The notes below the pieces were generated by a model. It made no database searches and was not told the DNA's origin. It saw only the letters and a program-made list of their open reading frames with translations. A stretch of DNA of 64,000 bases from Actinokineospora bangkokensis (GTDB taxonomy: Bacteria > Actinomycetota > Actinomycetes > Mycobacteriales > Pseudonocardiaceae), in contig NZ_MKQR01000016.1 of NCBI RefSeq assembly GCF_001940455.1, positions 403,125 to 467,124 on the forward strand. The letters are read 5' to 3'. Each line of letters starts with the position of its first letter. The first letter of the stretch is position 1. Position numbers and translations under genes: made by a program. This document shows, piece after piece, positions 26,656-35,620 of the stretch.

Positions 26656-27648
26656 ATGGGCTACAGCCTGGAAGACCGGCTGGTGATCGGGGTGGCGTCC
26701 AGCGCACTGTTCGACTTGTCCGAGTCGGACGCCGTCTTCCGCAACCGCGGGGAGGAGGCGTACCGCAGCTACCAGGAGCAGCGCTTGGACGAACACCTGC
26801 AACCAGGTGTCGCCTTCTCCTTCGTCAGGCGCCTGCTCTCCCTCAACGACCTCGCGCAACCGGACGACCCGCTGGTGGAGGTCATAGTCCTGTCGAAGAA
26901 CGACCCGGACACCGGGCTGCGGGTGATGCGCTCGATCGAACACCACGGGTTGGACATCACCCGTGCAATCTTCCAGCAGGGGCGCTCGCCCTACGAGTAC
27001 ATCTCGGTGCTGAACATCGCCCTCTTCCTGTCCGCCGACGACGGGGATGTGGCGAAGGCGGCGGAGATGGGGCTCCCAGCGGGCAGGGTTCTGACCGCCT
27101 CGCTGGCGGACACCGAAGACGACGACCTCCGCATCGCCTTCGACTTCGACGGGGTGCTGGCGGACGACAGTTCGGAGAAGATCGCGCAAGCGGACCTGAC
27201 GGCATTCCGGGAGCACGAGGTCCAGAACGTCAGGACGGCCCACAACGCGGGCCCGCTGAAGGACCTGCTGGCGGGCATCAACCGGATCCAGCAGCGGGAG
27301 GTGGAGCGCAAGGAGGCGGATGACGACTACCAGATCCGCGTCCGGGTCTCCATCGTGACCGCGCGGAACGCGCCGGCGCACGAGCGGGCGATCCTGAGCC
27401 TGAAGCAGTGGGGGGTGCGGGTCAACGACGCGTTCTTCCTGGGCGGCATCGACAAGGGTCCGGTGCTGGAGGTGCTGAAGCCGCACATCTTCTTCGACGA
27501 CCAGTTGAAGAACCTGCAAAGCAGTTCGAGCAGGGTACCCAGCGTGCACATCCCCTTCGGGATCGCGAACCTGCCCGCGCGGGTGGACGACGCCCGACGC
27601 GAGGTGGACGCGTCAGGTGAGGACTTCGAGGGTGGCGGGTCCTGTTGA
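26656..27648 (+). CDS. Cytosolic 5'-nucleotidase, cN-I family
   Basis: A 330-residue protein matching the 5'-nucleotidase family PF06189. The catalytic HAD-like motif I is DFDGVLADD (163-171). Earlier family patterns are LVIGVASSALFDL near the N-terminus and VIVLSKNDPDTGLRVMRSI. Later come TARNAPAHERA and the acidic motif HIFFDDQLKNL. It should dephosphorylate nucleoside monophosphates such as AMP or dCMP in the cytosol. ATG 26656 has GGCGAGGAATGCA upstream. Its last 36 bases overlap the convergent MOSC gene. The gene uses slightly more A/T-ending codons than its neighbours. Confidence 0.85.
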   Translation: MGYSLEDRLVIGVASSALFDLSESDAVFRNRGEEAYRSYQEQRLDEHLQPGVAFSFVRRLLSLNDLAQPDDPLVEVIVLSKNDPDTGLRVMRSIEHHGLDITRAIFQQGRSPYEYISVLNIALFLSADDGDVAKAAEMGLPAGRVLTASLADTEDDDLRIAFDFDGVLADDSSEKIAQADLTAFREHEVQNVRTAHNAGPLKDLLAGINRIQQREVERKEADDDYQIRVRVSIVTARNAPAHERAILSLKQWGVRVNDAFFLGGIDKGPVLEVLKPHIFFDDQLKNLQSSSSRVPSVHIPFGIANLPARVDDARREVDASGEDFEGGGSC

Positions 27649-28113
27649 GAGGGTGCCGGAGTCCAGGGGGGTGCAGCGGACGCCCGCTCGGCCGCGGAGG
27701 GCCCTGAAGGCGCCGTCGGCCAGTTGGGTGTCCATCCAGCGGCAGGGGGAGGCGGGGCGGTGGGCCCGGAAGCGGAGGGGGCCGGTGCCGGTGTCGAGGG
27801 TGAACAGGGCGCCGGGGGTGGTGCGGGTGGCGGCGAGGGTGTCGACGGGGAAGCCGCGGAGGAGGAGGTTGCGGCGGGTCCGGAAGGGGTCGAGCGGGGT
27901 GGCGAGGGCGCGGGCGACCTCGTCGAGGGCGTCGAGGGAGAGCAGGGTGACCGCGGCGGTGCGGTGGGCGGGGTGGTTGTAGTAGCGGTCGCCGAGGAGG
28001 CCGAGGTCGGCGTGGACCTCGACCTGGTCGAGCGGGGTGGGGGGCGGGCCAGGGGGGTCGGTGGGCCTGCCCTCGTAGGCGTGCACCGGGGAGACCAGGA
28101 TGGCCTCCAGCAC
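27613..28113 (-). CDS. MOSC-domain protein
   Basis: A 166-residue protein with a MOSC (molybdenum cofactor sulfurase C-terminal) fold: GLLGDRYYNHPAHRTAAVTLL, TRRNLLLRGFPVDTL and a conserved Cys in ASPCRWMDTQL. MOSC domains carry sulfur or detoxify N-hydroxylated compounds (YiiM/mARC relatives). GTG 28113 lies 15 bases past the stop of the cold-shock gene, so the two are probably co-transcribed. The gene converges with and overlaps the 5'-nucleotidase by 36 bases. Confidence 0.82.
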   Translation of the reverse strand: MLEAILVSPVHAYEGRPTDPPGPPPTPLDQVEVHADLGLLGDRYYNHPAHRTAAVTLLSLDALDEVARALATPLDPFRTRRNLLLRGFPVDTLAATRTTPGALFTLDTGTGPLRFRAHRPASPCRWMDTQLADGAFRALRGRAGVRCTPLDSGTLSTGPATLEVLT

Positions 28114-28127
28114 GACCGGGGTGGGCG

Positions 28128-28556
28128 TCAGTCGCCCAGCCAGCCGTGGCCCTCGGCGAGCTTGACCATGGCGCGCCGGACGCCGACGATCTGCTCGCCG
28201 GTCAGCGAGCCGACCGAGGTGAGCAGGGCCTCGGTGACCTCGGCGCTGAACTCGCCCGCCGGGATGAAGTCGCACAGCACGTCGTCATCGCCCGAGCCGC
28301 CCGAGCCGCCGACCGCGGTGCGGGTGGGCGCGGCCTCGGAGCGGCGCACGAGGGTGACCCCGAACGCCTTGGGGCCCCGGGGGCTGTCCTCCACCTCGAA
28401 CTCCACGAGCGAGCCCGCCGTCAGCAGGTGCTTGTCGAACTCCAGGTCGTTGACGTGCAGGAAGATGTCCTCCCCACCCGCGTCGTTGGCCACGAACCCG
28501 TACCCGCGGACCTGGTCGAACTTCACCACTGTCCCTGTCGCCACAGCAACCACCAC
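28128..28556 (-). CDS. Cold-shock-domain protein with extra C-terminal domain
   Basis: A 142-residue protein. Residues about 5-70 form a cold-shock OB fold with RNP-1-like GYGFVAND and RNP-2-like DIFLHVNDL, expected to bind single-stranded nucleic acid. Residues 80-90 are a Gly/Ser/Asp linker. The last 50 residues (VLCDFIPAGEFSAEVTEALLTSVGSLTGEQIVGVRRAMVKLA region) form a helical domain seen in actinobacterial two-domain Csps. GTG 28556 is chosen; GTG 28544 would give the shorter N-terminus usual for Csps. Followed closely by the MOSC gene. Confidence 0.87.
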   Translation of the reverse strand: MVVAVATGTVVKFDQVRGYGFVANDAGGEDIFLHVNDLEFDKHLLTAGSLVEFEVEDSPRGPKAFGVTLVRRSEAAPTRTAVGGSGGSGDDDVLCDFIPAGEFSAEVTEALLTSVGSLTGEQIVGVRRAMVKLAEGHGWLGD

Positions 28557-28603: not shown

Positions 28604-29128
28604 TCATTGTGCCACCACCCGCGTCCGGCGCCACGCCACGACCAGGAAACCGGCGAGCCCGACCAGCGGCAGGGTGCTCGCCGACCAGCTCAGCGCCAGC
28701 GGCGGGCCGGGCTGCTCCAGCACGTTCAGCGAGGTCAGCGCCCCGTCACCGGTTCCGAGCGGACCGTCGAGGTGGAACCGCAGCGCCCACTGCCCGGCCG
28801 CGTCCACGGACTTGATGTCGAGCCCCCAGACCTCCAGCTTGCGGGGGTGGCGCGCCAACGGCCGCTGCCGCGGTTGGCCGGTGGCGCCGGGGGCGACCAT
28901 GGCGAGGGTGCCGGACTTGTCCCCGATCCCCCCATCGGGCGCGAAGGTCCAGTCCAGTGACTGGTACGCGCGCACGGGCCAGGTGCTGAACCCGACGGTC
29001 ACGCCGTAGGGGCCGACTTGCACCCGTTCGGTGTGCACGACGTTCACGGGCTCGTAGGCGTTCGCGGCGGGCGCGGAGGCGACCACGAGGCAGGCGGTGA
29101 AGGCGAGGGCGGTCAGCGTGCGGCGCAC
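28604..29128 (-). CDS. Exported membrane-anchored protein, last gene of the envelope operon
   Basis: A 174-residue protein with a signal peptide (cleavage after APAANA), an extracytoplasmic beta-rich region and a C-terminal membrane anchor (LPLVGLAGFLVVAW) followed by RRTR. The exterior part includes VGPYGVTVGFSTWPVRAYQSLDWTF-type strands and ends LDGPLGTGDG. It resembles YtkA-like or Ig-like accessory proteins but I cannot name a family. GTG 29128 lies three bases after the preceding stop, so it belongs to the operon that begins with the histidine kinase at 34007. Confidence 0.75.
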   Translation of the reverse strand: MRRTLTALAFTACLVVASAPAANAYEPVNVVHTERVQVGPYGVTVGFSTWPVRAYQSLDWTFAPDGGIGDKSGTLAMVAPGATGQPRQRPLARHPRKLEVWGLDIKSVDAAGQWALRFHLDGPLGTGDGALTSLNVLEQPGPPLALSWSASTLPLVGLAGFLVVAWRRTRVVAQ

Positions 29129-29131
29129 GGC

Positions 29132-30295
29132 TCAGGCCTCCTTGACGGCAGCGGGGACAGCAGGAGCGGGGATGGCGGTGTCGGACCGGGTGGGCGCCCC
29201 GGGGTTGGCCGCGCGCAGCATGCGGCCGAAGCGCCACCCCAGGAACCCGGCCAGCAACCCGACGACCAGACCGGCGACGGCGTTCGGCAGCAGTTGCGCG
29301 ACCTGCACCCGGTAGCCGTACACGAGCGAGTCCTGCACGCCCTGCACCCCGGCGAGGACCGCGCCCGCCACCCCGCCGCCGACCACGGGCGCCCAGCCCG
29401 CGCCGCGGCGGGCGCGGGCGGCGAACAGCTCCAGCAGCAGCGCGACGGGGATCAGCAGCATCGGCATCAGCGCGGGCATCACCGGCACACCGCGGACGTA
29501 GTCGCGCACCGGCAGCCCCACCGACTCCGCGTACACCCGCGCCGCCCACGGCGAGAACCACCAGCCGACGAGCTGCACCACCCCGAGGGCCGCGGCCACC
29601 CACACCATCAGCCCGGCCTTGCGCGCGAACCCGCCCGCGGTGACCACGAGCATGACCACGAGCCAGGCCATCGCGGTGTAGACCGCCTCGAACGGACCGT
29701 CCACGCTGGTGAGCCCGAGCACCACGATGGTGCTGAACGCCGCGAGCGCGCCCAGCGACACCACGAGCCCCACCTTGCCCCAGCGGTGCTCGAACGCGGC
29801 GGCGAACACGACCGCGGTGCCCACCATGGTGGCCATGACCGACAGCAGCAGCCCGATGTGCGGCGGGGACTCGATCACCGCGTCGAAGCCGTAGAGGCTG
29901 TGCCACCACAGGTCCCACAGCCCGTAGACGAGGAAGGACGCCGCGCCGCACCCGGCGACGAGGTGGCCGACCGGCGCCTTGAACACGCCCAGCACGGCGA
30001 CCGGCACCCCGCCCGCGACGGGGTCGGGGTCGCGGCCCGCGCGCTGGGCCGCGGTGGCGGCGAGCACGGCGGTGAGGCTCGCCAGCCCGGCGATGGCGCT
30101 GCCCGCGTAGAGGAACAGGTGCGGCAGGGTGAAGAAGGTGTCCGGGCCGACGTCGGTGTGCCACTGCACGTCCCAGGTCAGGCCCACCAGCGTGATCAGC
30201 GACCCGAGCAGCAGCGCGGCCGCGGTCGGCAGGCCGCCGCTGAGCGCGGCACCGCCCACCCGGGCGCGCGGCAGGGTCCCCGCGGTCATGTCCAT
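29132..30295 (-). CDS. Polytopic membrane protein with duplicated WDxxWH motif
   Basis: A ~387-residue protein with about ten membrane segments. It contains two copies of an unusual pattern, WDxxWHxxxGxD followed five or six residues later by PH: WDVQWHTDVGPDTFFTLPH near residue 45 and WDLWWHSLYGFDAVIESPPH near residue 130. Each lies at the start of a membrane segment, so Trp, Asp and His would cluster at the membrane face, plausibly for a metal, haem or quinone. Two further segments have FxxAxxR caps. I do not recognise a family. AGGAGG lies eight bases before ATG 30295; ATG 30301 is also possible. Confidence 0.75.
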   Translation of the reverse strand: MDMTAGTLPRARVGGAALSGGLPTAAALLLGSLITLVGLTWDVQWHTDVGPDTFFTLPHLFLYAGSAIAGLASLTAVLAATAAQRAGRDPDPVAGGVPVAVLGVFKAPVGHLVAGCGAASFLVYGLWDLWWHSLYGFDAVIESPPHIGLLLSVMATMVGTAVVFAAAFEHRWGKVGLVVSLGALAAFSTIVVLGLTSVDGPFEAVYTAMAWLVVMLVVTAGGFARKAGLMVWVAAALGVVQLVGWWFSPWAARVYAESVGLPVRDYVRGVPVMPALMPMLLIPVALLLELFAARARRGAGWAPVVGGGVAGAVLAGVQGVQDSLVYGYRVQVAQLLPNAVAGLVVGLLAGFLGWRFGRMLRAANPGAPTRSDTAIPAPAVPAAVKEA

Positions 30296-30307
30296 GCCCA
30301 TCCCCTC

Positions 30308-30733
30308 CTAGTTCCCCACCCGCAGCGGGAGCACGGTCGACTCGGCGGCTCCCGCCCGGCGGACGGTCACGGTGATCTCCCAGGTGCCCGCCATCGACAG
30401 GTGCGCGGCCGGGACCCGGTAGCGGCCGGGGGCCTCGGCGGTGGCGGTGGCGGGCGGCTCGGCGTGCCCCATGCCGGGCATCACCGGTTCGACGGTCACC
30501 TCGTCGGCGGTGACCGGGGCGCCCGCGTGGTCGGTGACCTCGACGAGCAGGGCGTTGTCGCCGACCGACGCGGGCCCGTCGAGGACGACCCGCACCGCGT
30601 AGGTGTCGGACCCGCCGGTCAGCTCCTGGGGCTCGTCCTCGGGCCACAGCCACACGACGAGCAGCACGACGACCACGGCGGCGGCGACGGCGGCCAGCAG
30701 TCGGGTCCGGGGCAGGGCCCTGGTCTCGGTCAC
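30308..30733 (-). CDS. FixH/YtkA-like membrane-anchored protein
   Basis: A 141-residue protein. One N-terminal membrane segment (LLAAVAAAVVVVLLVVWLW) is followed by a YtkA/FixH-type beta-sandwich: YAVRVVLDGPASVGDNALLV..., the Met/His-containing VEPVMPGMGHAEPP and GRYRVPAAHLSMAGTWEITV. In other bacteria such domains occur with copper handling and cbb3 oxidase assembly. GTG 30733 overlaps the TGA of the upstream gene by four bases, so translation is coupled. Metal binding is inferred from MPGMGH only. Confidence 0.8.
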   Translation of the reverse strand: MTETRALPRTRLLAAVAAAVVVVLLVVWLWPEDEPQELTGGSDTYAVRVVLDGPASVGDNALLVEVTDHAGAPVTADEVTVEPVMPGMGHAEPPATATAEAPGRYRVPAAHLSMAGTWEITVTVRRAGAAESTVLPLRVGN

Positions 30734-32127
30734 GGTGTCCCCCCGGGGGTCGCGGCGATGTCGAGCAGGGCGGGCGCGGTGAGGACCTGGTAGCCCCGCT
30801 CGGCCTGGAACCACAGCCGGTACTGGCCGGGGCGCGGGAAGGTGAAGGTCCAGTCGACGTGCGGGTCGTAGGCGGCGACGGTCTCGTCCGGTTCACCGCC
30901 GACCGCGCCGGGGGTGGTGGGCACCATGGCGTGCGCGTGCGCCCACACCGGCGCGGCCAGCGCGGCCTCCCCGACCGGGGCGCCCGGCGGCAGCGGGCCG
31001 ATGACGACGAGGTGCCCGCGCATGCCCAGCCACGGCTGGAGGTCGGCGGGCCCGCCGAAGTCGGCGGTGAGGGTGGTGGGGCGCCCGGCGACGAGCCGGT
31101 CGGCGGTCACCTCGACCTGGGCGGTGCCCGCCGCGCGCTTGCCCGGTCCACTGGGGACGGTGGAGGCGCGCGGTTTCCCCGCAACGTCGAACGACCCGCG
31201 CACCTGCGCCACGCCCGCGCCCGCGCGCGACAGCTCGGCGGACACGGCGAAGCGCCCGCCCTCGCCGGGGGTGAACGCGGCCCGGTACTCCCCCGCCGCC
31301 GCGCGCACCGGGTGCAGGTGGCTGAGCACGCCGGACGGGCTCACCACGACCAGGTGCACGAACGCGGCGTGCTGGGCGCGCAGGTCGTCGACGGGGCGGC
31401 CGGTGGCGGCGTCGGTGAGGTCCAGCACCACCGCCGTCGGGCTCCCGGCCCGCGCGGGTTCGGCGCGCACGGCCATGTTGGCGGGCGGCCTGCTGCCGTC
31501 GAGGGCGGGGGCGGCGACCGGGGTGGACGCCGACAGCAGGGCGGCGGTGGCCGCCACGGTGATCGAGACGAGCACCCCGGCGCCCGCGGTGACGGCGCCC
31601 GCGCCGACCCCCCGGCGCAGCGCGAAGCCCAGCGCCAGCACCAGGAACACCCCGGCGGCGACGAAACCGCCGTAGGTCGCGCGCTCCCAGGTCTGGGTGA
31701 CCCGCTCCAGCACGGTGAACGGGATGCGCGCGGTGTTGCCCGCGCCGTCGTCGAGTTCGAGGTCCCAGGGGCCGAAGCGGTCGATGGTCAGCGTCGTGGA
31801 GGTCGCGCCGGGCGGACCGACCCGCACCACCGACTCGGACACGGCGCTGCCGCCCGGGGGCACCGCCCGCAGCCTCAGCTCACCGGGAGCGGTGCCGACG
31901 TGCGAGACGACGTCCACCGACACCGGCGCGGGTGCCCCCTCGACGCGGCGCACCACCACGGTCAGCTCGCGCTCCCCCAGCGTCTGCGCGACGTGCAGGT
32001 CGGCCCCCAGCGGAGCGCCGTCGGCCCACGCGGGCGGCGCGAAGACCACCAGCAGCACGCCCACCAGGGCCACCAGCGCCCGCACCCGTCCCCGCACGCC
32101 GGTGACGGTACCGAGCCGGGCGGGCAC
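30730..32127 (-). CDS. Large exported protein with central membrane segments
   Basis: A 465-residue protein with a signal peptide (ending PPAWA) and an extracytoplasmic beta domain up to about residue 145. Two membrane segments follow (about 150-170 and 178-200), then a second large exterior region. That region contains YtkA-like repeats: HLVVVSPSGVLSHLHPV, FTPGEGGRFAVSAEL, MRGHLVVIGPLPPG, and the His-rich VWAHAHAMVP. The ending reads TFTFPRPGQYRLWFQAERG. Similar HLH and AHAH patterns occur in copper-linked proteins, but no family is certain. The start is uncertain (GTG 32127 or GTG 32097). It is 63 bases downstream of the response regulator. Confidence 0.75.
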   Translation of the reverse strand: MPARLGTVTGVRGRVRALVALVGVLLVVFAPPAWADGAPLGADLHVAQTLGERELTVVVRRVEGAPAPVSVDVVSHVGTAPGELRLRAVPPGGSAVSESVVRVGPPGATSTTLTIDRFGPWDLELDDGAGNTARIPFTVLERVTQTWERATYGGFVAAGVFLVLALGFALRRGVGAGAVTAGAGVLVSITVAATAALLSASTPVAAPALDGSRPPANMAVRAEPARAGSPTAVVLDLTDAATGRPVDDLRAQHAAFVHLVVVSPSGVLSHLHPVRAAAGEYRAAFTPGEGGRFAVSAELSRAGAGVAQVRGSFDVAGKPRASTVPSGPGKRAAGTAQVEVTADRLVAGRPTTLTADFGGPADLQPWLGMRGHLVVIGPLPPGAPVGEAALAAPVWAHAHAMVPTTPGAVGGEPDETVAAYDPHVDWTFTFPRPGQYRLWFQAERGYQVLTAPALLDIAATPGGTP

Positions 32128-32190
32128 GGCTCGTCACGGCGGAAGGGGACCCGGGCTCCCCCGGGGGAGGGATGCGACCCCCGTCCGCCC

Positions 32191-32847
32191 TCAGGGGCGG
32201 CGCACCAGGCCGTGCCGGTGGGCGTAGACGACGGCGTGCACGCGGTCGCGCAGCCCGAGCTTGGCGAGCACCCGGGACACGTGCGTCTTCACCGTCTCCT
32301 CCCCGATGTGCAGCGCGGCGGCGATCTCGGCGTTGCTCAGCGCGTCCGCGACCAGCAGCAGCACCTCCTGCTCGCGGCTGGTGAGCCGGTCGGGCTCGGC
32401 CAGCGCCGGGGCGGGGGCGAGGCTGGCGGTGAACCGGCTGACCAGCCGCTTGGTGACCGAGGGGTCGATGAGCGCGTCGCCGCGCGCGGCCACCCGCACC
32501 GCCGAGACCAGCTCCTCCGGCGGCAGGCTCTTGAGCAGGAAGCCGCTCGCGCCGAGGGACAGCGCGCGGTGGACGTGCTCGTCGAGGTCGTAGGTGGTGA
32601 GCACCAGGACCCGGGTGCGGTTGCCGGGGGTGGACAGGATCGCCTCGGTGGCGGCGAGGCCGTCGAGGCGGGGCATGCGGATGTCCAGGACGGCGACGTC
32701 CGGGCGGGTGGCGGCCACCTCGCGCACGGCCGCGGCGCCGTCGGCGACCTCGCCGACGCACTCCAGGTCGGGTTGGGTGTCGAGGACCGCGCGCATGCCC
32801 GAGCGGAACATGGCGTGGTCGTCGGCCAGCAGCACGCGCAGGGTCAC
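32191..32847 (-). CDS. NarL/FixJ-type response regulator
   Basis: A 218-residue regulator. The receiver domain has acidic residues 9-10, phospho-acceptor Asp55 (VLDIRMPR) and Lys106 (FLLKSLPP). The LuxR-type HTH reads LTSREQEVLLLVADALSNAEIA and GEETVKTHVSRVLAKLGL. GTG 32847 overlaps the stop of the histidine kinase by four bases. It presumably activates the four envelope genes downstream, which lie on the same strand. Confidence 0.94.
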   Translation of the reverse strand: MTLRVLLADDHAMFRSGMRAVLDTQPDLECVGEVADGAAAVREVAATRPDVAVLDIRMPRLDGLAATEAILSTPGNRTRVLVLTTYDLDEHVHRALSLGASGFLLKSLPPEELVSAVRVAARGDALIDPSVTKRLVSRFTASLAPAPALAEPDRLTSREQEVLLLVADALSNAEIAAALHIGEETVKTHVSRVLAKLGLRDRVHAVVYAHRHGLVRRP

Positions 32848-34007
32848 CGGGCCTCCAGGGGGACGCGGACGCGGACGACCCAGCGGCCGCCGTCGGGCCC
32901 GCAGGTCACCTCGGCCCCGAACAGCGCCGCCCGCCTGCGGATGCCGCTGAGGCCGCGCCGGGTCGGGCCGCGGGTCGCCCCCGGTGCCGCGGGCAGGTCG
33001 TTGTCGACGGTGAGCACGACGTCGGCGGGCGTGCGCGCCAGGGCGACCGCCGCGCCGCGGCCGCCGCCGTGGCGCAGGGCGTTGGTCAGCGCCTCCTGGG
33101 CGATCCGGTACAGCGCGACGTCCACCGAGGGCGGCAGCGCCACGTCCGGCCCGGCGGTGGTCAGGGTCGTCGGCAGCCCGGCGGCCCTGGTGCCCCGCAC
33201 CAGCTCGTCGAGGTCGTCGAGCCCGGGTTGGCGCGCGGCGCCGTCGCCGTGGTGGAGCAGGTCGAGCAGGCGGCGCAGGTCCACCATCGCGGACCGGCTC
33301 GCGGTCTCCACCGCCGACAGCGACGGGCCCACCCGGTCGGGGGCACCCGCCAGCGACAGCCGCGCGGCGCCCGCGTGCACGCCGATCGCGCTGACGTGGT
33401 GGGAGATGACGTCGTGCAGGTCACGGGCGATCGCCGTGCGCTCCTCGGCGACAGCGCGGCGCACCGCGTCCTGCGCCTCCTGCTGCCGGTCGGCCTCGCG
33501 CCGCTCCAGCTCGGCCAGCAGCCCGCGCCGGGCGGTGGTGGTGCGGCCCACCAGCCACGGCAGCAGCACGGTGGTGAGGGTGTGCGCGGTGACCAGCCGC
33601 CAGTCCCCGGCCAGCGGCGACGGCGGGAACAGCGCGCGCCCCAGCAGCGCGCACACCAGCAGCACCCCGAGGACGACCCCCGCCTCCCGCAGGCCGAGCC
33701 ACGCCCCCGCCCGGTACCCGGCCACGAGCAGCCCGGTCTCGTTGGCCCCCGGGTACCCGCCCACCCCGGTCAGCAGCACCGGCCCGACCACCTGGAGCGC
33801 GGCGTGCCCGGCGGCCACGGGCCCGCAGAAGCGGGCGGGCGTGGCCAGCGCGAGGTCGGCCGCCAGGATCAGGAGCACGACCAGGTACCCGGCGGCCGAC
33901 GACGTGGCCCGGGGGCAGAGCACGAGCAGGATCACCACGTCGGCCACCGCGCACAGCACGGCGACGACCAGCTCCTGCCCGCGGAGGCCCGCTGCGGTGT
34001 CCCACAC
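32844..34007 (-). CDS. Sensor histidine kinase, HisKA_3 (NarL-partner) type
   Basis: A 387-residue kinase. The N-terminal ~155 residues hold about five or six membrane segments without a large exterior loop, so it likely senses a signal within the membrane. The dimerisation/phosphorylation helix reads ERTAIARDLHDVISHH with His198, and the ATPase domain has QEALTNALRH and GLSGIRRRAALFG. It is coupled to the response regulator by a GTGA overlap. First gene of a six-gene operon reaching 28604. Confidence 0.93.
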   Translation of the reverse strand: MWDTAAGLRGQELVVAVLCAVADVVILLVLCPRATSSAAGYLVVLLILAADLALATPARFCGPVAAGHAALQVVGPVLLTGVGGYPGANETGLLVAGYRAGAWLGLREAGVVLGVLLVCALLGRALFPPSPLAGDWRLVTAHTLTTVLLPWLVGRTTTARRGLLAELERREADRQQEAQDAVRRAVAEERTAIARDLHDVISHHVSAIGVHAGAARLSLAGAPDRVGPSLSAVETASRSAMVDLRRLLDLLHHGDGAARQPGLDDLDELVRGTRAAGLPTTLTTAGPDVALPPSVDVALYRIAQEALTNALRHGGGRGAAVALARTPADVVLTVDNDLPAAPGATRGPTRRGLSGIRRRAALFGAEVTCGPDGGRWVVRVRVPLEAR

Positions 34008-34051: not shown

Positions 34052-35620
34052 TCAGAACAGCTCCTCACCCCACACGACCTCGCCCGCGACGACGGTGGCG
34101 CGGACGCCGACCGAGGCCGGGGGGACCACGTGCGGGTCGGCGGTCAGCACGGCCAGGTCGGCGTGCGAGCCGGGGGTGAGCGAGCCCAGCTCGTCCTCCC
34201 AGTGGCAGGACCAGGCGGCCTCGGTGGTGTAGGCGTGCACCGCGGTGGCCGGGCTGACGGCCTCGGCGGGGGCGATGCGGGTGCCGCGGTGGGAGGTGCG
34301 GTCGAGCATGAACTGCATCGCGCGCAGCGGGGCGCCGACGGTGACCGGGCGGTCGGAGCTGCCCACCAGGCGGACGCCCTCGTCCACGAAGGACTGTCCC
34401 CTGTAGAGCCACTGGGCGCGCTCGGGGCCCATCACCTCGGCGTAGTCGTCGCCGAAGGACCACAGGAACGTCGGTTGCACGACCGGGGTGACGCCCAGGG
34501 TGGCGAAGCGCGGGAGCTGGTCGGGGCGCACCAGCCCGGCGTGCTCGACGCGGTGGCGGGCGCGCGGGCGGGGGTGGGCGGTCTGGGCGGCCTCGATGGC
34601 GTCGAGGGCCACGTCGACGGCCCGGTCACCGATGGCGTGCACCGCCAGCTGCCAGCCCGCGCGGTGCCCGTCGACGATGACCGAGCGCAGCTCGTCGGGG
34701 TCGGCGTAGAGCTCGCCCGCCGAGTCCGACCCGGCGTAGGGCTCGGTGAGCGCGGCGGTGCGGGCCATCATGCCGCCGTCGGTGAAGACCTTCAGCGCGC
34801 CCAGCGACAGCCGGTCGCCGCCGAAGCCGGTGCGCAGGCCCAGGTCCATCGCGCGGGGGGTGTCGTCGGTGCCGTGCGCGGCGACCGGGCGCAGCAGCGC
34901 GCCCGCGACCATCAGCCGCACCCGCAGGGGCAGCCTGCCCTGCTCCTGGGCGCGCTGGTAGGCCGCCAGCTCCACCGGGCTGTGCCGGATGAGCCCGCCG
35001 CCGATGCCCGCCTCCGCGACCGCGGTGACCCCCTCGGCCAGGCACTGCCGCCCGGCGCGCTCGACGGCGGCCACCAACTCGGCCAGCGGGTAGGGCTGGC
35101 GCAGCTCGCGCACCAGCGCCGCGCCCGCCTCCACCAGCAGCCCGTCGCGGTGCGGCACGTCGGCGGGCAGCGCGGCCAGCACCCCGGAGTCGACCACGCA
35201 GGCGTGCCCGGAGTCGTGCACCAGGTTCACCCGGCGGCCCGCGGCGACGGTGTCGAGGTCGGCGGCGGTGACGTGCCGCCCGAGCCTGCGCTGGTCGTAG
35301 CCCACCACGTCGACCCACTCGCCGACCGGGCGCTGCCGGGCCGCGGCCGCCACCGCGGCGAGCACCCCGGCCACGGAGTCCTCGGCGGCCACCGACGCGG
35401 TGTCGGCGGCCAGACCGGCCCAGGCCAGGTGCACGTGCGGGTCGACGAAGCCGGGGAGCACCACCGCGCCGCGCAGGTCGACCACGCGGCGCGCGGGAAG
35501 CCCGGCGACCGCCTCGTCCAACCCCACCACCCGGCCGCGCCAGACGCCCAGCGCCGACGCCGTCGGCCGGGCCGGGTCCAGGGTGGTGAACCGGCCACCG
35601 ACGAGCAGGAGATCCAGCAT
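34052..35620 (-). CDS. Amidohydrolase family 3 (YtcJ-like) metal-dependent hydrolase
   Basis: A 522-residue amidohydrolase. The N-terminal beta sandwich leads into the metal-binding DPHVH motif (near residue 60). Further ligands and family motifs are KVFTDGGMM (carbamylated Lys candidate), VHAIGDRAVD and RHRVEHAGL, with the C-terminal TAAVHAYTTEAAW and SHADLAVLTADP segments. It hydrolyses an amide or N-formyl bond in a cyclic or acylated substrate; YtcJ-type specificity is unknown. ATG 35620. It is transcribed toward the two-component operon, with 44 bases between. Confidence 0.9.
   Translation of the reverse strand: MLDLLLVGGRFTTLDPARPTASALGVWRGRVVGLDEAVAGLPARRVVDLRGAVVLPGFVDPHVHLAWAGLAADTASVAAEDSVAGVLAAVAAAARQRPVGEWVDVVGYDQRRLGRHVTAADLDTVAAGRRVNLVHDSGHACVVDSGVLAALPADVPHRDGLLVEAGAALVRELRQPYPLAELVAAVERAGRQCLAEGVTAVAEAGIGGGLIRHSPVELAAYQRAQEQGRLPLRVRLMVAGALLRPVAAHGTDDTPRAMDLGLRTGFGGDRLSLGALKVFTDGGMMARTAALTEPYAGSDSAGELYADPDELRSVIVDGHRAGWQLAVHAIGDRAVDVALDAIEAAQTAHPRPRARHRVEHAGLVRPDQLPRFATLGVTPVVQPTFLWSFGDDYAEVMGPERAQWLYRGQSFVDEGVRLVGSSDRPVTVGAPLRAMQFMLDRTSHRGTRIAPAEAVSPATAVHAYTTEAAWSCHWEDELGSLTPGSHADLAVLTADPHVVPPASVGVRATVVAGEVVWGEELF

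Follow-up and report, generated by a model that had tools for sequence, protein, structure and literature searches.

A conserved four-gene membrane module of Actinokineospora bangkokensis that encodes a predicted remote homologue of the copper monooxygenase C subunit

The 64,000-nucleotide stretch of Actinokineospora bangkokensis DNA analysed here (the window; source assembly 7.45 Mb) contains six open reading frames (ORFs) that all lie on the minus strand and run from 34007 down to 28604. They encode a sensor kinase, a response regulator and four envelope proteins, which we call P3, P4, P5 and P6:

32844-34007, minus strand: HisKA_3-type sensor kinase (Pfam HisKA_3)
32191-32847, minus strand: NarL-type response regulator (Pfam Response_reg and GerE)
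30730-32127, minus strand: P3, predicted exported protein with a signal peptide, a beta domain, two transmembrane (TM) helices and more beta domains (structural model and secondary structure)
30308-30733, minus strand: P4, membrane-anchored YtkA/FixH-like protein (Pfam YtkA and FixH)
29132-30301, minus strand: P5, 389 amino acids with 10 predicted TM helices (model, loop charges and PmoC homology)
28604-29128, minus strand: P6, predicted exported protein with a hydrophobic anchor at its C-terminus (by eye); no family match, invariant H32 and H94

Kinase and regulator overlap by 4 bases, as do P3 and P4. A gap of 63 bases separates the regulator from P3 (∼ 93 if P3 starts at the GTG near 32097), and gaps of 6 and 3 bases follow P4 and P5. 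The kinase scores above the Pfam cut-off for HisKA_3 (57.2 versus 24) and 2.5 bits below that for HATPase_c (23.9 versus 26.4), while the regulator exceeds the cut-offs for both Response_reg and GerE; judged by these domains, the pair is a NarL-type two-component system. P4 is above the Pfam cut-offs for YtkA (59.4 versus 25.9) and FixH (32.5 versus 23). None of P3, P5 and P6 scored above a Pfam or NCBIfam cut-off: matches of P3 were sub-threshold at best, and P5 and P6 gave none at E up to 1.

An initial annotation had described the six genes as one set, in which a two-component system drives four unknown envelope proteins. Among 41 genomes (our own and 40 relatives), P3-P6 are all present in the same 12, our own included; within the genus 11 of 16 genomes have them, and in other genera of the family one of nine. 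Stray matches were restricted to a distant P5 (G033), a weak P3 (G028), a weak P6 with stops (G030) and YtkA-type proteins in seven further genomes, and P3, P5 and P6 occur at full strength only together. The order P3-P4-P5-P6 and the strand are constant in 11 fetched loci and the window, and the two-component pair adjoins the four genes in 11 of these 12 loci, at times divergently. A larger set of 80 database loci (the best 80 of 112 relatives) was obtained by a scan of genome contigs that demanded TWD[VI]QWH or [LM]WD[QL]WWH in P5. P5 and P6 were found in all 80, P4 in 79 and P3 in 78; the four genes are collinear on one strand in 78 loci, and the two exceptions (L117 and L124) sit at contig ends. 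Genera with such loci include Actinokineospora, Amycolatopsis, Lentzea, Kibdelosporangium, Umezawaea, Nocardia and Nonomuraea, with one Rhodococcus. A kinase gene flanks P3-P6 in 42 of the 80 loci (27 divergent, 15 on the same strand) and was not seen within the fetched flanks of the other 38. The regulator was matched in 43, one match (L117) having only 38% identity and lying far from the set, and every other cluster of neighbouring genes reaches at most 29 loci.

P3-P6 is therefore a real module that is inherited together and not a chance arrangement. Since the four genes are constant and the kinase pair varies across loci, they are the conserved unit, and the six-gene run holds for our own genome. 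The ORF coordinates agree with the layout first described (one strand, overlaps to 63-base gaps), and the four envelope genes are co-conserved; the refuting case, in which they would occur separately in relatives, was not borne out. The two-component system had to be given up as a fixed part of the set, although it likely regulates P3-P6 where it is adjacent.

P5 carries two WDxxWH motifs. Each belongs to a longer pattern with the spacing of a copper site in PmoC, the C subunit of particulate methane monooxygenase (pMMO):

30119-30172, minus strand: CuC-type motif of P5, D44-x3-H48-x12-H61 (residues 44-61), PmoC spacing
29858-29914, minus strand: CuD-type motif of P5, D130-x3-H134-x13-H148 (residues 130-148), PmoC spacing

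The second spacing equals that of N227/H231/H245 in PmoC, which we take to be the CuD residues and which stand at those positions of the verified PmoC sequence; Asp130 takes the place of Asn227. The first equals that of D156/H160/H173 (CuC, positions checked on the PDB sequence), and here the likeness between P5 and PmoC extends beyond the ligands to D-x2-W-H-x5-D-T-x-F-T-x2-H. In its excerpted text, PMC12576850 likewise gives D156, H160 and H173 for CuC, and for CuD it names two His and one Asn. All six P5 residues are invariant in 81 of 81 close rows, a count that loses some of its force through selection by the scan patterns, neither of which includes H61 or H148. The same invariance was found in 12 rows from a whole-protein search that used no motif pattern. 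The P5 model (predicted local distance difference test, pLDDT, 89.2) has D44 and H48 close to the end of helix 1 and H61 close to the start of helix 2; in the second motif, D130 and H134 are correspondingly close to the end of helix 3 and H148 to the start of helix 4. Mean numbers of Lys plus Arg in loops 0-10 are 2.4, 0.0, 4.75, 0.0, 1.79, 0.48, 1.89, 1.19, 2.67, 0.51 and 2.12, and both motif-bearing loops are free of these residues. The positive-inside rule thus predicts that both termini of P5 are cytoplasmic (N-in/C-in); given the alternating charge, the site-bearing loops should face outside, as should P3, P4 and P6.

Because the profile of the close P5 family was empty against the PDB and weak against PmoC, it was widened to divergent members. 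The P5 profile (A5) matched 26 of 396 genomes of the phylum at 28 places, window included, and 19 of these places were taken with their flanks. Divergent N-terminal regions were cut by the motif pattern, and each of the 19 places held an ORF that matched it. The resulting 26-row superfamily profile (A11) holds seven close rows, L025 and 18 of the 19 divergent places; the short ORF L138 was omitted, and the cut of L150 caught only the first site. A11 matches 56 of the 396 sampled genomes (44 of the 301 of good quality). Among its places we found a third subfamily, mostly ∼ 320-390 amino acids long, with the motifs D-x3-H ... PWH and D-x2-W-H ... SPxH and a longer second spacing. Adding 10 of its 15 rows to A11, with some A11 rows omitted, gave a 29-row profile (A14). 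In longer divergent members (∼ 590-700 amino acids), the chain seems by eye to run on into another domain and a final hydrophobic segment.

Searched against 177,635 PDB sequences with E up to 10, A11 gave 13 matches, all of them PmoC or AmoC (best E 0.0015); queried with PmoC, the same database yields 14 distinct PmoC/AmoC sequences. All 11 matches of A14 at the same E limit were likewise PmoC/AmoC (best E 0.032). Comparison with a PmoC profile gave P 1.6e-4 and a probability of 50.6 for A11, and P 6.6e-6 and 84.7 for A14 (hhalign), the latter with both sites collinear and 22% identity over 96 columns. The A14 score of 43.0 compares with 24.7 for the best of 200 local shuffles that keep local composition, and with 17.0 for PmoA, 19.6 for PmoB and 10.7 for PmoC reversed. 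Nine columns are invariant over the 29 rows (D33, H37, H50, D119, W122, H123, G127, P135 and H137), six of them copper-ligand positions; where rows had been cut out by way of the second motif, its invariance is in part a product of selection. Hidden Markov models (HMMs) were run in both directions. The superfamily HMM, run on 1081 ORFs (86 of them pmoC by motif), placed pmoC in 24 of the top 25 ranks (best E 4.7e-5; best reversed decoy, E 0.14), and the remaining ORF, L169_2989_3393, sits at the pmoC place of its locus. A large PmoC HMM, run on 6026 ORFs (100 of them superfamily by motif), ranked superfamily members in all of the top nine and 46 of the top 50 places (best E 0.0016, against E 2 for the leading reversed decoy). 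With a seven-sequence PmoC HMM they took the top three (best E 0.005, against E 0.18 for the leading reversed decoy).

At the level of the superfamily profile, these data indicate that the N-terminal half of P5 is very probably a remote homologue of PmoC/AmoC. The same likeness would be seen if the D-x3-H...H motif had arisen twice in unrelated membrane proteins, as the low identity and the weak or empty single-family profiles might suggest. We regard such convergence as highly improbable, since two motifs recur in the same order at near-equal spacing, every PDB match is PmoC or AmoC, and the score lies well above the shuffles. P5 is not reached by the curated models of the C subunit: PF04896 and TIGR03078 gave no match at E up to 1. 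A PF04896 search of our own genome was also empty up to E 10, whereas it matched both plasmid controls. For one relative, L135, the two models give E 0.23 and 0.2, below the cut-offs.

The C-terminal half of P5 invites comparison with the A subunit. VIA-align, working on 1000 chains drawn from the Foldseek ranking, placed the AmoA chain 9pxf_D first; its Z of 10.4 (next row, 7.7) lies within the range that helical bundles reach by common arrangement, which tells against it. The alignment joins P5 residues 171-370 to residues 24-244 of the chain (165 residues, root-mean-square deviation 3.0). By sequence and profile comparison the likeness to PmoA was unsupported, a second point against. The profile A12 returned the same AmoA chain at E 0.9 as the fourth of four matches, and in a scan of 6026 ORFs with a PmoA HMM the top three were superfamily members, but at E 0.087 to 1.1. 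We consider the chances that this half is PmoA-like to be evenly balanced, and a fusion of C- and A-type parts in P5, as modelled, to be plausible.

The neighbouring envelope proteins also carry conserved His and Met residues, in part in compact regions:

30931-31356, minus strand: region of P3 with the invariant residues from H258 to H399 (HLHP and WAHxHA motifs), 79 of 79 rows; H76 lies outside it
30392-30481, minus strand: Met/His motif of P4, M-x2-M-G-H ... M (M86, M89, H91 and M115; numbering from base 30736)

In P3, H76, H258, H270, H272, M369, H372, H397 and H399 are invariant in 79 of 79 rows. Its model (pLDDT 87.2) has two TM helices between beta regions, and fold searches returned Ig-like matches. 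The four P4 motif residues are each conserved in 80 of 80 rows, and H32 and H94 of P6 in 81 of 81. Such residues would fit outward copper binding. We rejected P6 as a PmoB-like protein: a PmoB HMM ranked several P6 ORFs high, an artefact in which nothing but signal peptides is aligned in the alignments shown.

The Met/His motifs had initially been read as a hint of copper or haem handling, and motifs of copper type are indeed present; P4 was rightly called FixH/YtkA-like, exceeding both cut-offs. The further statement that the set matches nothing nameable holds insofar as the whole falls into no named family and only P4 reaches a profile family, but not for P5, very probably a remote homologue of PmoC/AmoC. 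We propose that P3-P6 form an oxygenase-like complex in the membrane that depends on copper and has its own means of delivering it, a reading in which catalysis is what we infer and to which we assign a probability of roughly 55%. P5 would bind copper in the outer half of the membrane, at its CuC- and CuD-type motifs. P4, with its Met/His motif, and P3, with its invariant His and Met residues, would bind or deliver copper and cap the complex on the outside, and P6 would be an additional anchored subunit. The complex would use O2 and a membrane reductant to oxidize a small substrate, as the copper membrane monooxygenases (CuMMOs) do, and in about half of the loci the neighbouring two-component system would set expression of the module.

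We predict with good confidence that one or both P5 sites hold copper. P5 could instead be a PmoC homologue that binds zinc, iron or no metal and has a different membrane function. The Asp in place of Asn at site 2 and the longer second spacing of the third subfamily could be so explained, and the earliest crystal structures of pMMO had zinc at CuC, according to the excerpted text of PMC12576850. However, the ligand set is fully kept and, as we interpret them, the neighbouring Met/His proteins are of copper type, and we consider this alternative improbable.

Several results weigh against the proposed complex or the homology on which it builds. Foldseek searches of P5 against the PDB and viral models gave no match at E up to 0.001, and no CuMMO appeared among the 50 matches listed. 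Taken alone, the close-family profile found nothing in the PDB and reached an hhalign probability of 6.3 against PmoC; the third-subfamily profile alone also had no PDB match (probability against PmoC, 5.5). On 531 other ORFs, from loci fetched with A11, the PmoC HMMs ranked an unrelated ORF first (E 0.0033 for the seven-sequence and 0.068 for the larger model), ahead of superfamily ORFs at E 0.38 and 1.3. With an unrelated ORF at E 0.0033 and reversed ORFs down to E 0.18, the best E of 0.0016 in the PmoC-to-ORF direction is weak by itself. Comparison of the P3 and PmoB profiles showed no similarity, PmoB was not found among the 50 matches listed for the P3 fold searches, and our own genome gave no match to PF04744, to which both controls matched. 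P3 also has no invariant His before H76, and at the position of H45 no more than 35 of 79 rows have His. As the mature protein likely starts at D36 (by eye) and no invariant His precedes H76, P3 should lack a PmoB-type N-terminal His brace.

The absence of this brace would suit PmoC-derived copper handling without oxygenase activity. P5 would then hold or pass copper, P3, P4 and P6 would relay it outside, the two-component system would sense copper or envelope stress, and the clients would be copper oxidases. P4 as a YtkA/FixH protein, the invariant His/Met of P3 and P4 and the invariant His of P6 are all compatible with this, and superfamily members lie near copper genes in L271, L272 and L136. 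These are three loci only, the others of 10 hand-picked neighbour proteins showing no copper link. Moreover, both PmoC sites are kept across a very large sequence distance, as for a functional site of fixed geometry. Copper handling is a real possibility, though we incline against it. More boldly, these proteins might constitute a widespread, unrecognized class of copper membrane oxygenases in Actinobacteria that combines C and A functions in one polypeptide, replaces the PmoB His-brace subunit by a YtkA-type carrier and a multi-His exported protein, and acts on substrates other than methane and ammonia; we put this forward tentatively, at somewhat less than even chances.

An amidohydrolase gene directly upstream of the kinase (34052-35620) was considered as a seventh member and dismissed, as it adjoins the set in 7 of the 80 loci, all titled Actinokineospora. 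Just downstream of P6 lie a cold-shock-domain gene (28128-28556) and a MOSC-domain gene (27613-28275), which adjoin P3-P6 in two loci (with a further distant match in L093) and three loci respectively. A conserved gene occurs in 27 of the 80 loci at a median of ∼ 4.3 kb before P5 (for example L065:3501-4376); by eye it resembles what we take to be DUF2236/MpaB-type oxygenase proteins. Outside the class, P5 and P6 occur in L134 (4994-9815, genome G228), where a similar regulator and kinase lie divergently alongside and no P3 or P4 was found. In L143 (5876-6694) and L145 (5818-6558), a gene that looks by eye like a MerR-type regulator adjoins a long P5 relative divergently; such genes also lie within a few kb of one in L146 (2380-3126) and L150 (8923-9669).

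Among superfamily members, some lie beside or near copper genes: a P-type ATPase with heavy-metal-associated domains in L271 (169-2643, 3373-4500), and multicopper oxidases in L272 (3084-4208, 4285-5754) and L136 (6735-7817, 8667-9560). In one family of the same order (f8, perhaps Mycobacteriaceae), 12 of the 14 listed genomes carry a member. A relative annotated as hypothetical is located on the Mycolicibacterium vanbaalenii plasmid NZ_CP126903.1; P5 itself had no match in the plasmid collection. We also noted pmoC genes on IMG/VR phage contigs (L153-L232; 133 stretches, 80 kept) and amoC on Nitrosomonas and Methylocystis rosea plasmids (L238 and L239), with no amoA or amoB annotated in the fetched stretch.

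The active site of pMMO has been disputed for three decades, according to the excerpt of PMC12576850. A large natural family in which ligands of the CuC and CuD types are kept and no CuB brace was seen would independently test which sites matter, and could supply proteins that are easier to study. Genera carrying the P5 superfamily include antibiotic producers. CuMMO chemistry has so far been tied to a few oxidizers of methane, ammonia and short-chain hydrocarbons; if our reading is true, it has relatives in ∼ 1/7 of the sampled genomes of the phylum (56 of 396).

Among known systems, P5 is closest to the C subunit of the CuMMOs (pMMO, ammonia monooxygenase and the actinobacterial butane/hydrocarbon monooxygenase; PF04896, TIGR03078), with which it shares both motifs in order, profile homology and, in its model, the helix-loop-helix placement of the ligands. 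It differs in the Asp at CuD, in an extra six-helix half and in not being recognized by PF04896; the two N-terminal TM helices that PmoC presumably has are absent. The locus has no xmoA or xmoB alongside, and its order is P3-P4-P5-P6 rather than that of an xmoC/xmoA/xmoB operon. With subunit A (PmoA/AmoA) the C-terminal half shares the structural match to 9pxf_D, without sequence support. P3 has what we take to be the domain order of PmoB (signal peptide, beta domain, two TM helices, beta domain) but is unlike subunit B (PmoB/AmoB; PF04744) in its Ig-type matches, its longer outer part and the lack of an N-terminal invariant His. P4 resembles YtkA/FixH proteins in its Pfam scores and Met/His motif, and is encoded in the P3-P6 module instead of the fix/oxidase cluster that we presume usual for FixH. 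A search of the open-access literature (subscription papers and preprints were outside its scope) brought up neither a protein of this kind nor a PmoC-type fusion among the papers listed. For published CuMMOs, the excerpted texts report D sites as absent in some (PMC9038741), CuB as not universal, with Verrucomicrobia as the exception, and a putative butane monooxygenase among the groups in Actinobacteria (PMC6215863). The divergent archaeal CuMMOs of Ca. Angelarchaeales were, in the excerpt of PMC9038741, first seen below the usual profile threshold; they keep the CuC ligands, an amo/pmoCAXB cluster, separate subunits and the CuB histidines, and are without the D site. In P5, by contrast, the CuD-type spacing is kept and the CuB brace was not seen. 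As the curated models do not recognize it, no CuB brace was seen and its operon is of another kind, the P5 family lies outside the CuMMO family as defined; by its superfamily profile, it is a remote branch with kinship to the C subunit of the CuMMOs.

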